64,000 bases of DNA, from positions 496,001 to 560,000 of the forward strand of contig RQJH01000003.1 in assembly GCA_014156375.1 (NCBI GenBank), given 5' to 3'. The notes below the pieces were generated by a model. The model did no database searches and had not been told where the DNA came from. It was given only the letters and a program-made list of their open reading frames with translations. Shown here in pieces: positions 20,492-25,229 of this stretch (positions are counted from its first letter, which is position 1; each line of letters opens with the position of its first letter). Made by a program: the position numbers and the translations under genes. Origin of the DNA: Enterobacteriaceae bacterium 89 (GTDB taxonomy: Bacteria > Pseudomonadota > Gammaproteobacteria > Enterobacterales > Enterobacteriaceae).

Positions 20492-20640
20492 GACTTTCTC
20501 CTTGTTGACTGAAGTGGATTTGCTCACAGGCTTAAGGAATAAGTATTGATGGCTTCAGGGAAACGGTATGGCGCTTTGTGCGCTCTTGTTGTGTTTGACC
20601 GGGTTGATGATTGCACAGGGTGAAGGGAATGCAAAGCCAC

Positions 20641-20658
20641 GCCGGGGCTAACCCCGGC
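20641..20658. terminator. GC hairpin downstream of the 147-residue unknown gene
   Basis: GCCGGGG-CTAA-CCCCGGC at 20641-20658 lies 12 bases past the stop of the minus-strand gene that follows. The T-run in that direction is poor, so termination is probable but not certain. Confidence 0.55.
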
Positions 20659-20669
20659 ATTTGTTCCCA

Positions 20670-21113
20670 TTAATGCGTCAGGATGCCAAACCGTGGTTCT
20701 TTCAGCTCATAAGTCATAAAGCTAATCAGGTCATGCAGTAAGCCCGTTAACACTTCACGTTCATTGTCGCGATAGTTATTACGCATCAGCAGCAACGTCA
20801 GCGCCTGACAATATTCACATTGCAAGTCGGAGTCTGCAAAGATCCATTGTCTGGATGAGGCCATTACCTTCTCCGTGGTTAATTCAATAATACGAAGTTC
20901 GCTCATATCCTCTTCGAGCGACACGCTCAATTTATGCAGATAGGAAGAAAGGCAGCGTAACACTGGCGCGATAGTTTCGGTCTCATTAGCATCAACAATA
21001 ATCTGTGATAACAGCTCGCAGCGTTCAGCAAGATCGATAAAGTCAGGATTACCGACAGATAATTCGCTGTAGAGCGCTGGATTATAATCATGATAAATAG
21101 TTTGTTCTTTCAT
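20670..21113 (-). CDS. Unknown 147-residue cytoplasmic protein
   Basis: I do not recognise this protein. It is acidic, has no signal peptide or membrane segment, and is predicted to be mostly helical (for example LAERCELLSQIIVDANETE and LRCLSSYLHKLSVSLEED). It contains few cysteines and one CEYC motif (QCEYCQALTLL) but no other metal-binding pattern. The codon and base composition is more AT-rich than the flanking fumC and fumA. It lies divergent to the PAAR effector gene in the insertion between fumC and fumA, so it may be part of the transferred segment. The ATG at 21113 is preceded by a GAGAATGCACT leader with only a weak ribosome site. Confidence 0.7.
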   Translation of the reverse strand: MKEQTIYHDYNPALYSELSVGNPDFIDLAERCELLSQIIVDANETETIAPVLRCLSSYLHKLSVSLEEDMSELRIIELTTEKVMASSRQWIFADSDLQCEYCQALTLLLMRNNYRDNEREVLTGLLHDLISFMTYELKEPRFGILTH

Positions 21114-21678
21114 AGTGCATTCTCGTTTAAAGTAACTTGATTACCTCCATAAATGCCACATTCTGGAGGCGGACTGAACAAGGTTGGCATACCGACCATA
21201 ACGAGAAAAAAACCGGCGCTTCGAAAGAAGCCCTCATCCAGTCCACCATCGCTGCATTATACGCATGATGCAGAAAAGATTGCTAAAAGAGGTTGCATGG
21301 ACAACCGCTTCTGCTCGTTAATGATTCAGGATGCCAATCCTGGAGCCTGTTCTAATGGCTCAATGCGATAATACACCTGTTATTTCATCCAGCCATTTTC
21401 TTTATTCAATTCTGGAAAGCTGCTCGCAAATAATCTTTGGAATAGCACATGCTCAGCTGACAAAAATATTTTCCCATAAACACTGCCAATAGTTCAATCA
21501 TTGTTTATTCACCAGACCTCTTTATGTACACTTCAAATCAGGGATTATGAATACATATACACCTGACTTATTAGTAGAATGATGAACAGCATCATTTCCA
21601 GTCAGTCAATTTCATCTTGTTTTATTTAAGATGCCGTTTGTAAAATCACTGAATACACAAAATAGTCAGGAAGACGCA
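21114..21678. other. AT-rich divergent intergenic region of the effector insertion (565 bp)
   Basis: This stretch separates the unknown minus-strand gene from the PAAR effector gene and is clearly richer in A and T than the surrounding chromosome, as is usual for horizontally gained loci in enterics. It contains two small inverted repeats: ATGATG-AACAG-CATCAT at 21579-21595, and CATCTT / AAGATG at 21613-21633, close to the effector start. No convincing small gene was found in it, and I could not assign a promoter with confidence. Confidence 0.5.
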
Positions 21679-23262
21679 ATGACATATCGTCCCAATATTG
21701 ATGGGCTGGGAATGGCGCTTAGCTGTGACAAAACCACAACGGGAGCAAAACTGATTTCCTCAGTCCCTATAAATCTCGTGAATATCTGTGGCTTCGCAGT
21801 GATCCGGGTCGGCGATACCACAACGCCGTGTCCTGAATGCGGCAAGCCCGGCAGAGTTATCGAAGGAGCGAAAGAATTTATTCGGACTTTCATGGGTGTG
21901 CAGGTTGCTGTCGATCGCTGTCTGGTCCAGTGCGACTGTCCACTGGGAAGCAACCGAATCATTGCTCCCGTAAATAGCTGGCTCGGCAAAGGGCCTTCTC
22001 CGGAACAGGTTGCCGCTGAAAAAAATGTGGTTTCTCTGGCCGCCGCAGCAGCAACTCAGGCCATTGAGCAAAAGCGCAAAGCGGAGGAGCGTGAACGAAA
22101 CCGTGTTTTCGCAAAATCCTGTTTGCGTGGTGAAGGCTGCAATGATGCCGGGAGCGAGCGCGAGCCGCATGCTAACTTCGCGCAGCTGGCTTTCTTTCGG
22201 GCATTGCCAGTGGCAGATCCCACCACTGATTCTGATGCACCACAGCATGCTCAGACGGCAATAAAGAACAAACCAGTCGCACCGGAAGACATCCCCAAAC
22301 CGAAGAAGCGTAGCGCCCTTTATCTCTGGTGGAATGGTCACCACGAAGAAATGGATTATCAGGCTGCCGTTGCTGTAGCAGCCAGTGCAACCCGCGCTGA
22401 AGCTGCAAAGACCGGAGCAAACTTACTGGAAATAGTGGGAGGTCGCGCACTCACTTACGGCACATGGGCGGTGCGGACAGGTGAGATAGCCAGCGCTGGC
22501 GCGGGAGCCTCCGTTGCCGGGCTGCTGATCGGCATGATGCCCGGCAGACTTAACGACGGTGAACAGGATTTTCTTGACCGGATGCGCACCGCACAGCTGC
22601 GCGAAGCCCCCACCCGAGTGCGCTTTTCGTGGGAAGACGATGCGAACGGCAACCCTACCCCGTATGGCTGGCATACTCCGCCCGGTAAGGACATGGTGCG
22701 AGTCCGTAAAATGGCGTGGGACAGTAGCCGTCAGGCTTACACCTTTACCACCGAAGAAGAAAACCCTGTCACCATTATCTGGACTCCCGATCAATCAGAG
22801 AGCAACAAATCCTGGAATACCGGTAACCAGGCTCCGCTGCGCCTTCCGTCATCGGTGATCGTTGATCCGCTCCCGGATAATACTAAAGTCACTACGACCA
22901 ACACTCCGGCAGCGGATGAAACGAGCTTTGCGGATTACATTCTGATCCTGCCCGTGTCGGATCTGCCGCCGATTTATATCTATCTGAATTCGGATCATAA
23001 ATACCATGCTGTCCCCAAAGGAATACCAGCACTGCCCGCGTTTCCTGACGCAAAAATAGCGAAAAAGAGAACTTCAGTTAAAGGCGGAGGTATTTTGCGT
23101 TCCAGATGGAAGGATTCTCAAGGCCGAATTTATGAATGGGACTCACAGCATGGTACTGTTGAAATTTATGACAGGTCTGGCCGTAACCATTTAGGCGAAT
23201 TCAATCATATAACAGGTGAGCAAACCAAACCGGCTAATCCAGCCAGAAAGGTGGAAAAATGA
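21679..23262 (+). CDS. PAAR-domain type VI effector with S-type pyocin region and colicin E3-type ribonuclease tip
   Basis: A 527-residue modular toxin. Residues 1-90 resemble a PAAR spike-tip domain (VIRVGDTTTPCPECGKPGRV, then VAVDRCLVQCDCPLGSNRI). Residues 90-230 are a charged linker, followed by a Gly/Ala-rich hydrophobic stretch (ASAGAGASVAGLLIGMMPGR). About 270-440 resembles the S-type pyocin/colicin translocation domain (RVRFSWEDDANGNPTPYGWH). The last 60 residues match the cytotoxic domain of colicin E3: YEWDSQHG supplies the catalytic aspartate and histidine, and the glutamate four residues on and an arginine near the C-terminus are kept (D488, H491, E495, R523 here). Colicin E3 cuts 16S rRNA in the decoding site. 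The ATG at 21679 has AGGAAG 5 bases upstream and is preferred over one 16 codons earlier. No core type VI genes are nearby. Confidence 0.87.
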   Translation: MTYRPNIDGLGMALSCDKTTTGAKLISSVPINLVNICGFAVIRVGDTTTPCPECGKPGRVIEGAKEFIRTFMGVQVAVDRCLVQCDCPLGSNRIIAPVNSWLGKGPSPEQVAAEKNVVSLAAAAATQAIEQKRKAEERERNRVFAKSCLRGEGCNDAGSEREPHANFAQLAFFRALPVADPTTDSDAPQHAQTAIKNKPVAPEDIPKPKKRSALYLWWNGHHEEMDYQAAVAVAASATRAEAAKTGANLLEIVGGRALTYGTWAVRTGEIASAGAGASVAGLLIGMMPGRLNDGEQDFLDRMRTAQLREAPTRVRFSWEDDANGNPTPYGWHTPPGKDMVRVRKMAWDSSRQAYTFTTEEENPVTIIWTPDQSESNKSWNTGNQAPLRLPSSVIVDPLPDNTKVTTTNTPAADETSFADYILILPVSDLPPIYIYLNSDHKYHAVPKGIPALPAFPDAKIAKKRTSVKGGGILRSRWKDSQGRIYEWDSQHGTVEIYDRSGRNHLGEFNHITGEQTKPANPARKVEK

Positions 23263-23516
23263 CTATTATTTATACAGTTGAAGCTTTTGAGCGTATAAAC
23301 GAAATGCTTGTTTTCGAGGTTGAGATACCCAAGATAAAACTCTCTGAAATAGCAGCAGTTATGGGCTGGACAGATGAAGACTTAAACGATTTCATAGCTG
23401 GAATTGGAGGGTGGAATCTTACGGCTGAACAAGCTCACTCAATTGAGCTAATTTTGCAAAAGGAATTTTATCAAGAGGATTTAGATTTTCAAATTTCTGG
23501 CGGAGAAATTCCCTGA
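23259..23516 (+). CDS. Probable immunity protein for the E3-type effector
   Basis: An 85-residue acidic protein (start MTIIYTVEAFERINEMLVFE) whose ATG overlaps the TGA of the effector by 4 bases (ATGA), the usual arrangement for translational coupling of toxin and immunity. The small size and strongly acidic character suit binding to a basic RNase domain. However, I see no resemblance to the classical colicin E3 immunity protein (start MGLKLDLTWF) beyond length and charge. It looks closer to small proteins annotated with a DUF7683-type domain, a recollection I cannot verify here. It is AT-rich, like the upstream intergenic region. Function is inferred from position. Confidence 0.72.
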   Translation: MTIIYTVEAFERINEMLVFEVEIPKIKLSEIAAVMGWTDEDLNDFIAGIGGWNLTAEQAHSIELILQKEFYQEDLDFQISGGEIP

Positions 23517-23546
23517 AAAAATTGTTTCACAGCTATGCCAGTCGAT

Positions 23547-23570
23547 AAAACCGCCCTCGCAGGCGGTTTT
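23547..23570. terminator. Bidirectional terminator between the immunity gene and fumA
   Basis: AAAACCGCC (23547-23555) and GGCGGTTTT (23562-23570) form a hairpin flanked by A and T runs on the two sides, lying between the converging immunity gene and fumA. Confidence 0.88.
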
Positions 23571-23582
23571 AAATTTGAAAAC

Positions 23583-25229
23583 CTACTTCACACAGCGAGC
23601 ACACTGAGAAGACTGGATCTGCTGGAAGAAGTCATTGCCTTTGTCATCCACGAGGATAAACGCCGGGAAATCTTCCACCTCAATTTTCCAGATAGCTTCC
23701 ATTCCCAGCTCCGGATATTCCACCAGCTCCAGGCTCTTGATACTGCCCTGCGCCAGCACCGCTGCCGGACCGCCGATGCTGCCGAGATAGAAACCACCGT
23801 GCTTGTGGCACGCATCCGTCACCTGCTGGCTGCGGTTGCCTTTCGCCAGCATGATCATGCTGCCGCCTTCAGATTGCAGCTGGTCGACGTAGGAATCCAT
23901 GCGGCCTGCGGTGGTTGGGCCGAGCGAGCCGGAAGCATAGCCCTCTGGCGTTTTCGCCGGGCCTGCGTAATAGATTGGGTGATCTTTCACATACTGCGGC
24001 AGACCTTCGCCTTTATCCATGCGCTCTTTTAGCTTGGCGTGGGCAATATCGCGCGCCACGATGATCGTGCCGTTCAGTGATAAACGCGTGGAGACCGGGA
24101 AATCCGACAGCTGCGCCAGAATCTCTTTCATCGGACGGTTCAGGTCGATGCGCACGGCCTCGCCCTCTCCGGCATTGCGCAGCTCTTCCGGGATGTATTT
24201 GCCTGGGTTGTGCTCCAGTTTTTCGATCCACACCCCTTCGCGGTTGATCTTCGCTTTGATGTTGCGATCCGCCGAGCAGGAAACGCCCATCCCTATCGGG
24301 CAAGAGGCGCCGTGGCGCGGCAAACGGATCACGCGGATGTCGTGGGCAAAGTATTTGCCGCCGAACTGCGCGCCAAGGCCCAGATTCTGCGCTTCGATCA
24401 GCAGCTCTTTTTCCAGCTCAACGTCGCGGAACGCCTGGCCGTGTTCGTTCCCTTCGGTCGGGAGGCCGTCGTAGTATTTGGTTGACGCCAGTTTGACGGT
24501 CTTCAGCGTGGCTTCCGCTGAGGTGCCGCCAATGACGAAGGCGACATGATACGGAGGACAAGCCGCGGTGCCGAGGGTACGCATTTTATCCACCAGATAA
24601 CCCTTCAGTTTCGCCGGGGTGATCAGCGCTTTGGTTTCCTGGTAGAGATAGGTTTTGTTGGCTGAACCGCCGCCTTTGGCGATGCAGAGGAATTTGTACT
24701 CGTCGCCGTCTACGCTATAGAGATCGATTTGTGCTGGCAGGTTGGTGCCGGTGTTGACCTCTTTATACATATCGAGCGGCGCATTCTGCGAGTAGCGCAG
24801 GTTGTCTTCGATATAGGTGTCATACACGCCGCGCGCCAGAGCGGCTTCATCGCCGCCGTTGGTCCAAACATGGTGGCCTTTTTTGCCCATGATGATTGCC
24901 GTGCCGGTGTCCTGGCAGGTTGGCAAAATGCCTTTGGCGGCGATATCAGAGTTACGCAGGAACTGCAGGGCGACGTATTTGTCGTTTTCGCTGGCTTCCG
25001 GGTCGCTCAGAATGTCAGCCACCTGCTGTTGGTGTGCCGGACGGAGCATGAAGGAAGCGTCGTGGAAGGCGTGTTTCGCCAGCAGCGTCAGGGCCTGTGG
25101 ATCCACTTTGAGGATCGACTGGCCTTCGAATTCAGTGACGGTGACGTGATCGGAACTTAGCAGATAGTACTCGGTGTCATCCTTTTTCAGCGGAAAAGGA
25201 TCCTGATAGATAAAAGGTTTGTTCGACAT
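23583..25229 (-). CDS. fumA: Fumarate hydratase class I, aerobic
   Basis: A 548-residue [4Fe-4S] fumarase, the oxygen-sensitive citric acid cycle enzyme. The cluster cysteines lie in [31 protein letters not shown] and GVSCSADRN, and the C-terminal beta domain carries the conserved [11 protein letters not shown]. Sequence and length match E. coli FumA/FumB; the position beside manA and near fumC argues for fumA. Divergent from manA. The gene normally found directly downstream, fumC, is displaced by the effector insertion. Confidence 0.93.

Follow-up and report, generated by a model that had tools for sequence, protein, structure and literature searches.

Two overlapping genes in a 64,000-nucleotide stretch of Enterobacteriaceae bacterium 89 (GCA_014156375.1, contig RQJH01000003.1, positions 496,001 to 560,000; hereafter the window) are best read as an antibacterial type VI secretion system (T6SS) effector and its immunity protein, with a probability of about 0.85. 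The first (21679..23262, plus strand) encodes a 527-amino-acid (aa) protein that joins a PAAR tip, a linker, a Pyocin_S domain and a colicin E3-type nuclease, and the second (23259..23516, plus strand), whose start overlaps the toxin stop as ATGA, encodes a putative immunity protein of 85 aa belonging to the DUF7683 family. According to the proposed mechanism, PAAR would cap the VgrG spike of a T6SS encoded elsewhere in the genome, by which the effector would be carried into a neighbouring cell; Pyocin_S would then aid the C-terminal domain across the inner membrane, as the work on pyocin G suggests, and this domain, with its catalytic set intact, would cleave 16S rRNA at the decoding centre in the manner of colicin E3. 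The DUF7683 protein may bind the basic nuclease domain via an acidic surface on a predicted fold like that of the colicin E3 immunity protein (ImE3), and so keep the nuclease off the ribosomes of the producer and its kin. This reading leaves the accepted view of T6SS effectors and E3 nucleases in place. What it adds is a probable function and origin for DUF7683, a domain to which no function had been assigned.

Domain organisation of the effector

The effector frame is open upstream to an ATG at 21631, and the 527-aa start was placed at the ATG at 21679, which is closely preceded by AGGAAG. Three Pfam families match the product, each above its curated cut-off: PAAR_motif at aa 17-90 (21727..21948, plus strand; 31.3 bits against a cut-off of 27, with a second search placing PAAR identically), Pyocin_S, read as an inner membrane translocation (IMT) domain (PMC9040868), at aa 305-435 (22591..22983, plus strand; 107.1 bits), and Cytotoxic, the colicin E3-type 16S rRNase, at aa 452-526 (23032..23256, plus strand; 103.7 bits). 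The structure 3mfb, which has a matching Pyocin_S stretch, is retrieved at 7.7e-21 by phmmer. These searches bear out the first-pass annotation, made from the letters alone, which had described a PAAR spike, an S-type pyocin region and a C-terminal nuclease with the E3 residues D488, H491, E495 and R523, all four of which are in place. By domain match and by the catalytic D, H, E and R, the effector thus falls within the E3 rRNase family (PF09000).

Related loci were collected by scanning named genomes for the E3 domain, which confirmed 169 loci, the best 80 of which were kept. In an alignment of these 80 with the window toxin (81 in total, some partial), no variation is seen at D488, E495 and H504, and conservation at H491 and R523 reaches at least 90%. 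Plain phmmer with the effector retrieves solved colicin E3 (2.7e-13), and the C-terminal tips are net basic in 80/80 related toxins. Cleavage of 16S rRNA near A1493, as by colicin E3, is the activity that we infer for the tip from its intact catalytic set; in the E3 rRNase family the cut falls between A1493 and G1494.

Probable delivery by a type VI secretion system

No receptor-domain family is seen in the effector, as no Pfam match at E<=1 exists beyond PAAR_motif, Pyocin_S and Cytotoxic. This agrees with the earlier claim that a colicin receptor domain is lacking. Colicin E3 has receptor and translocation domains, and the N-terminal position in which nuclease colicins and S-type pyocins carry their receptor-binding domain is occupied here by PAAR.

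The genome (4.72 Mb, 7 contigs) yields seven kinds of T6SS proteins, which rules out the absence of a T6SS: TssC, with a single match on a contig other than that of the window, and TssF, TssA, IcmF/TssM, VgrG, a ClpV-type AAA+ protein and TssK, all in one region of contig C2. PAAR also occurs in three additional short open frames. The statement that the window holds no core type VI genes stands for TssC, given its single match on another contig, VgrG, Hcp and the rest not having been searched for in the window. The term orphan, likewise, fits the position of the effector gene and no more than that, since the genome has its T6SS cluster with VgrG at another location and, in E. coli O158:H23, a like pair is found within such a cluster. 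In that strain (locus L144, 4867-6518) a gene with PAAR, Pyocin_S and Cytotoxic, followed by a DUF7683 gene, is found between tssA and tssF, and DUF6392 genes come after the pair.

The N-terminal part of the effector (residues 1-440) has relatives in 44 of 295 genomes of the family (E<=1e-20). Nine carrier proteins, chosen for their differing tails and six of them drawn from the 44-genome set, were scanned with Pfam: Pyocin_S and PAAR are present in all nine (one PAAR match falling 0.4 bits under the cut-off), and the tips are Cytotoxic in four, Col-Pyo_DNase in one, Ntox21 in one and free of any Pfam match in three. At least three kinds of tip without Pfam match (E<=0.01) are seen at the C-termini of L035, L042 and L050, and tails of similar appearance occur in L047, L053 and L059 and in L049 and L051. 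From one carrier to another, tip and immunity gene would travel jointly. Within E. coli, a 581-base query from the window was matched in 2 of 5426 genomes, over 51% of its length.

Because of these carrier data, the literature on the IMT domain and the E. coli O158:H23 pair between tssA and tssF, delivery of the effector by a T6SS is well supported at the sequence level, and the earlier preference for type VI delivery over release holds. That the protein is instead a released, pyocin-like bacteriocin is very unlikely. Two observations weigh in its favour and against a T6SS effector, namely the resemblance of the Pyocin_S and Cytotoxic half to pyocin S6 (PMC4905994) and the occurrence of Pyocin_S in 56 of the 81 related toxins, as opposed to just 11 with PAAR (some sequences being partial); they are opposed by the N-terminal PAAR, the lack of a receptor-domain family, the T6SS of the genome and the same-kind pair inside a T6SS cluster.

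The overlapping DUF7683 gene

The 85-aa protein is acidic (17 D+E, 4 K+R, pI 4.05), which together with the ATGA overlap confirms the earlier description of a coupled, acidic small gene. It belongs to DUF7683 (PF24731; 60.8 bits against a cut-off of 27), and the model NF040643, 'pyocin S6 family toxin immunity protein', scores 29.0 bits, just under its cut-off of 30, so that it is not a member by NCBI's rule. PF03513, the colicin E3/cloacin immunity family, matches nowhere in the genome, in line with the remark that the protein does not resemble the known E3 immunity family by sequence. Partner proteins are net acidic in 79 of the 80 related loci. The immunity role is well supported, and the protein would act by neutralising the nuclease. 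No mention of DUF7683 was found in the literature searched, outside of which most subscription papers fell.

Immunity classes and nuclease tips

In 80/80 kept loci, the start of a 60-120-aa frame falls in the interval from 20 bases upstream to 50 bases downstream of the toxin stop. The 80 downstream-frame proteins and the 85-aa protein of the window form a set of 81 (A2), in which, at E<=0.01, PF24731 matches 65, NF040643 matches 31 and Cloacin_immun (PF03513) matches none. PF09000 is found in nine of 394 genomes of the order, and the directly adjoining gene is DUF7683 in six, Cloacin_immun in two and neither in one; the PF09000 match is in two pieces in one of the DUF7683 cases (G180) and partial in the genome with neither class (G046). 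In one of the two Cloacin_immun genomes (G391) a DUF7683 gene is also present about 800 bases downstream. The genes of that genome (L014/L030) form a stack in which the E3 toxin and Cloacin_immun are followed by what appear by eye to be an HNH-nuclease-like remnant and a colicin-immunity-like gene, and then by a lone DUF7683 gene.

A broader comparison used all collected loci, from which 94 distinct tips were retrieved by a search motif, tips without it being uncounted; the tip classes were set by a motif chosen after a colicin-type tip had been seen. Immunity classes were assigned with two profiles built here, and because the DUF7683-class profile was made from the 81 A2 proteins, these are recognised by construction. 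The first recognised neighbour is of the DUF7683 class in 82 of the 94 tips; the remaining 12, of the colicin E3 type, have a Cloacin_immun-class neighbour (nine) or no recognised gene (three), and in one of the nine (L044) a DUF7683-class gene lies 433 bases further on. In a tree of 92 tips (76 columns, no labels used, two tips dropped as duplicate or short, colicin E3 itself not a row), one branch with support 100/99 splits the 80 DUF7683-partnered tips from the 12 others. The DUF7683-class side takes in loci of Actinomycetota, Myxococcota and Verrucomicrobiota, placed there by the tip tree and not by Pfam matches of each member.

Both kinds of tip ride PAAR-Pyocin_S carriers (L030, L044 and L163 for one, the window and L144 for the other), which suggests that the immunity class goes with the nuclease tip rather than with the delivery carrier. 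Locus L163 (1407-3258), on a plasmid of Chimaeribacter arupi, is of the PAAR-Pyocin_S-E3 design, and its immunity gene is of the colicin E3 type. An exclusive pairing of DUF7683 with E3 toxins is contradicted by 8 of the 15 DUF7683 genomes, which have no PF09000 match; the domain is not confined to these toxins. In two genomes without a PF09000 match (G240, locus L022; G298, locus L023), the open frames that hold the DUF7683 match are 258 and 266 aa long, and the domain may have another use there. A gene like the DUF7683 gene of the window also occurs on a plasmid of Vibrio coralliilyticus (L160, 3989-4231), next to the antiviral reverse transcriptase pair drt3a/drt3b; an SMI1/KNR4 gene is found at a distance of 4 kb.

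Probable kinship of DUF7683 with the colicin E3 immunity protein

When the predicted fold of the DUF7683 protein was compared with the Protein Data Bank (PDB), ImE3 was the first row among 893 aligned chains. At the profile level, the DUF7683 class and PF03513 align with Prob 91.9, as opposed to at most 5.7 in 200 shuffles, and the match is collinear over 77 columns. The protein is thus probably a distant cousin of ImE3, as judged from a modelled fold and remote sequence similarity. The profile match is weak or absent on subsets of the alignment; a motif-picked subgroup of 17 DUF7683-class members does not by itself align with Cloacin_immun, while aligning with the other 64 (Prob 98.0).

An alternative is that DUF7683 is an inhibitor without relation to ImE3, its likeness being confined to a small alpha+beta arrangement of a common sort, and that it inhibits the nuclease at a different site, as does the CdiI of Enterobacter cloacae with its own nuclease. 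This is considered improbable in view of the first place of ImE3 in the structure comparison and of a collinear profile match far above the shuffles. A new inhibitor fold is, on the same two comparisons, less likely. The kinship reading extends to a wider proposal, held to be fairly likely: DUF7683, together with the genes aligning to it, would form an unrecognised sister lineage of ImE3, perhaps the larger one. The E3-type 16S rRNases and their inhibitors would have diverged early on into two jointly inherited lineages, one of the DUF7683 class and one of the Cloacin_immun class, without partner swapping and both on PAAR-Pyocin_S carriers. If true, the system would suit the study of how a nuclease and its inhibitor can change past sequence recognition with one binding mode kept.

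The suggestion of an unusual immunity protein, one from another inhibitor family that acts on the same nuclease fold, is therefore not upheld: in the loci examined, the DUF7683 class is the usual partner of this half of the E3 tips, an NCBI model nearly matches the protein, and the structure and profile comparisons point to remote ImE3 kinship. What had been a claim of a new inhibitor family is tempered to the more modest finding that DUF7683 is the usual, probably ImE3-related partner for one half of the E3 nucleases that were examined.

Genomic setting

The pair lies within a segment (approximately 20590..23600, no strand assigned) missing from five relatives of the genus, in which the matched flanks stop at 20504-20589 and resume at 23585-23617. 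In 5/5 comparable relatives, that is, those showing both flanks together, the flanking genes, which we take from their translations to be fumC and fumA, are adjacent, without the effector segment of about 3 kb; a sixth (G001) gave a single match, whose identity is that seen for the second fumarase copy in other genomes. Gain of the segment here is a simpler reading than loss elsewhere. In the same accessory segment, a minus-strand open reading frame of 147 aa (20670-21113) has no Pfam match, the part at 20590-21690 gave nothing in E. coli beyond matches of about 87 bases among the matches listed, and GC content falls to 34% at 21400-21699, directly upstream of the toxin.

A location between housekeeping genes and absence from genus relatives speak for a silent or decaying accessory segment with no current function. 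This is given very little weight, since the two reading frames are uninterrupted, the catalytic residues have been retained and each gene has a ribosome site that is plausible by eye.

Comparison with known systems

The effector-immunity pair is intact, and its architecture has been published before. A protein of Enterobacter bugandensis E104107 with the PAAR-Pyocin_S-PF09000 design was given the name Ppp2 in 2023, with the suggestion that it may be a novel antibacterial effector (PMC10763514). By description rather than by sequence, Ppp2 resembles the window effector in being encoded by a solitary PAAR gene of similar size that also carries Pyocin_S and PF09000 and lies away from T6SS clusters; unlike here, the portions of its account drawn on name no immunity gene (PMC10763514). 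PAAR and Cytotoxic were listed in 2022 among the domains that co-occur with Pyocin_S (IMT) in T6SS effectors and bacteriocins, and the IMT domain of pyocin G was found to be required for entry into the cytoplasm, an experimental result on pyocin G and not on the window effector (PMC9040868). For Tox-ColE3, a 2012 survey, in the part drawn on, gives Imm-Cloacin and Imm45 and mentions no T6SS route (PMC3482391). Experimental tests of a PAAR-E3 effector were not found by title or abstract start in the literature searched, mostly without subscription papers.

Pyocin S6 shares with the window locus the combination of Pyocin_S with an E3-type rRNase and an overlapping small immunity gene, whose 77-aa product has borderline likeness to ImE3 and was shown experimentally to protect; unlike the window effector, this pyocin is released and has a receptor domain (PMC4905994). 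Judging from the model name, the pyocin S6 immunity protein would belong to NF040643 or DUF7683. The CdiA-CT/CdiI pair of Enterobacter cloacae ECL is likewise an E3-like 16S rRNase with its own immunity protein, and differs in acting by contact-dependent inhibition and in a nuclease 17% identical to ColE3 (PMC9086364). Colicin E3 itself (PDB 1e44, 3eip) has in common with the window pair the nuclease domain family, the catalytic set and, by comparison of the predicted model with ImE3, possibly the immunity fold, whereas the ImE3-class genes (PF03513), unmatched in this genome, pair with tips of the other half of the tree.
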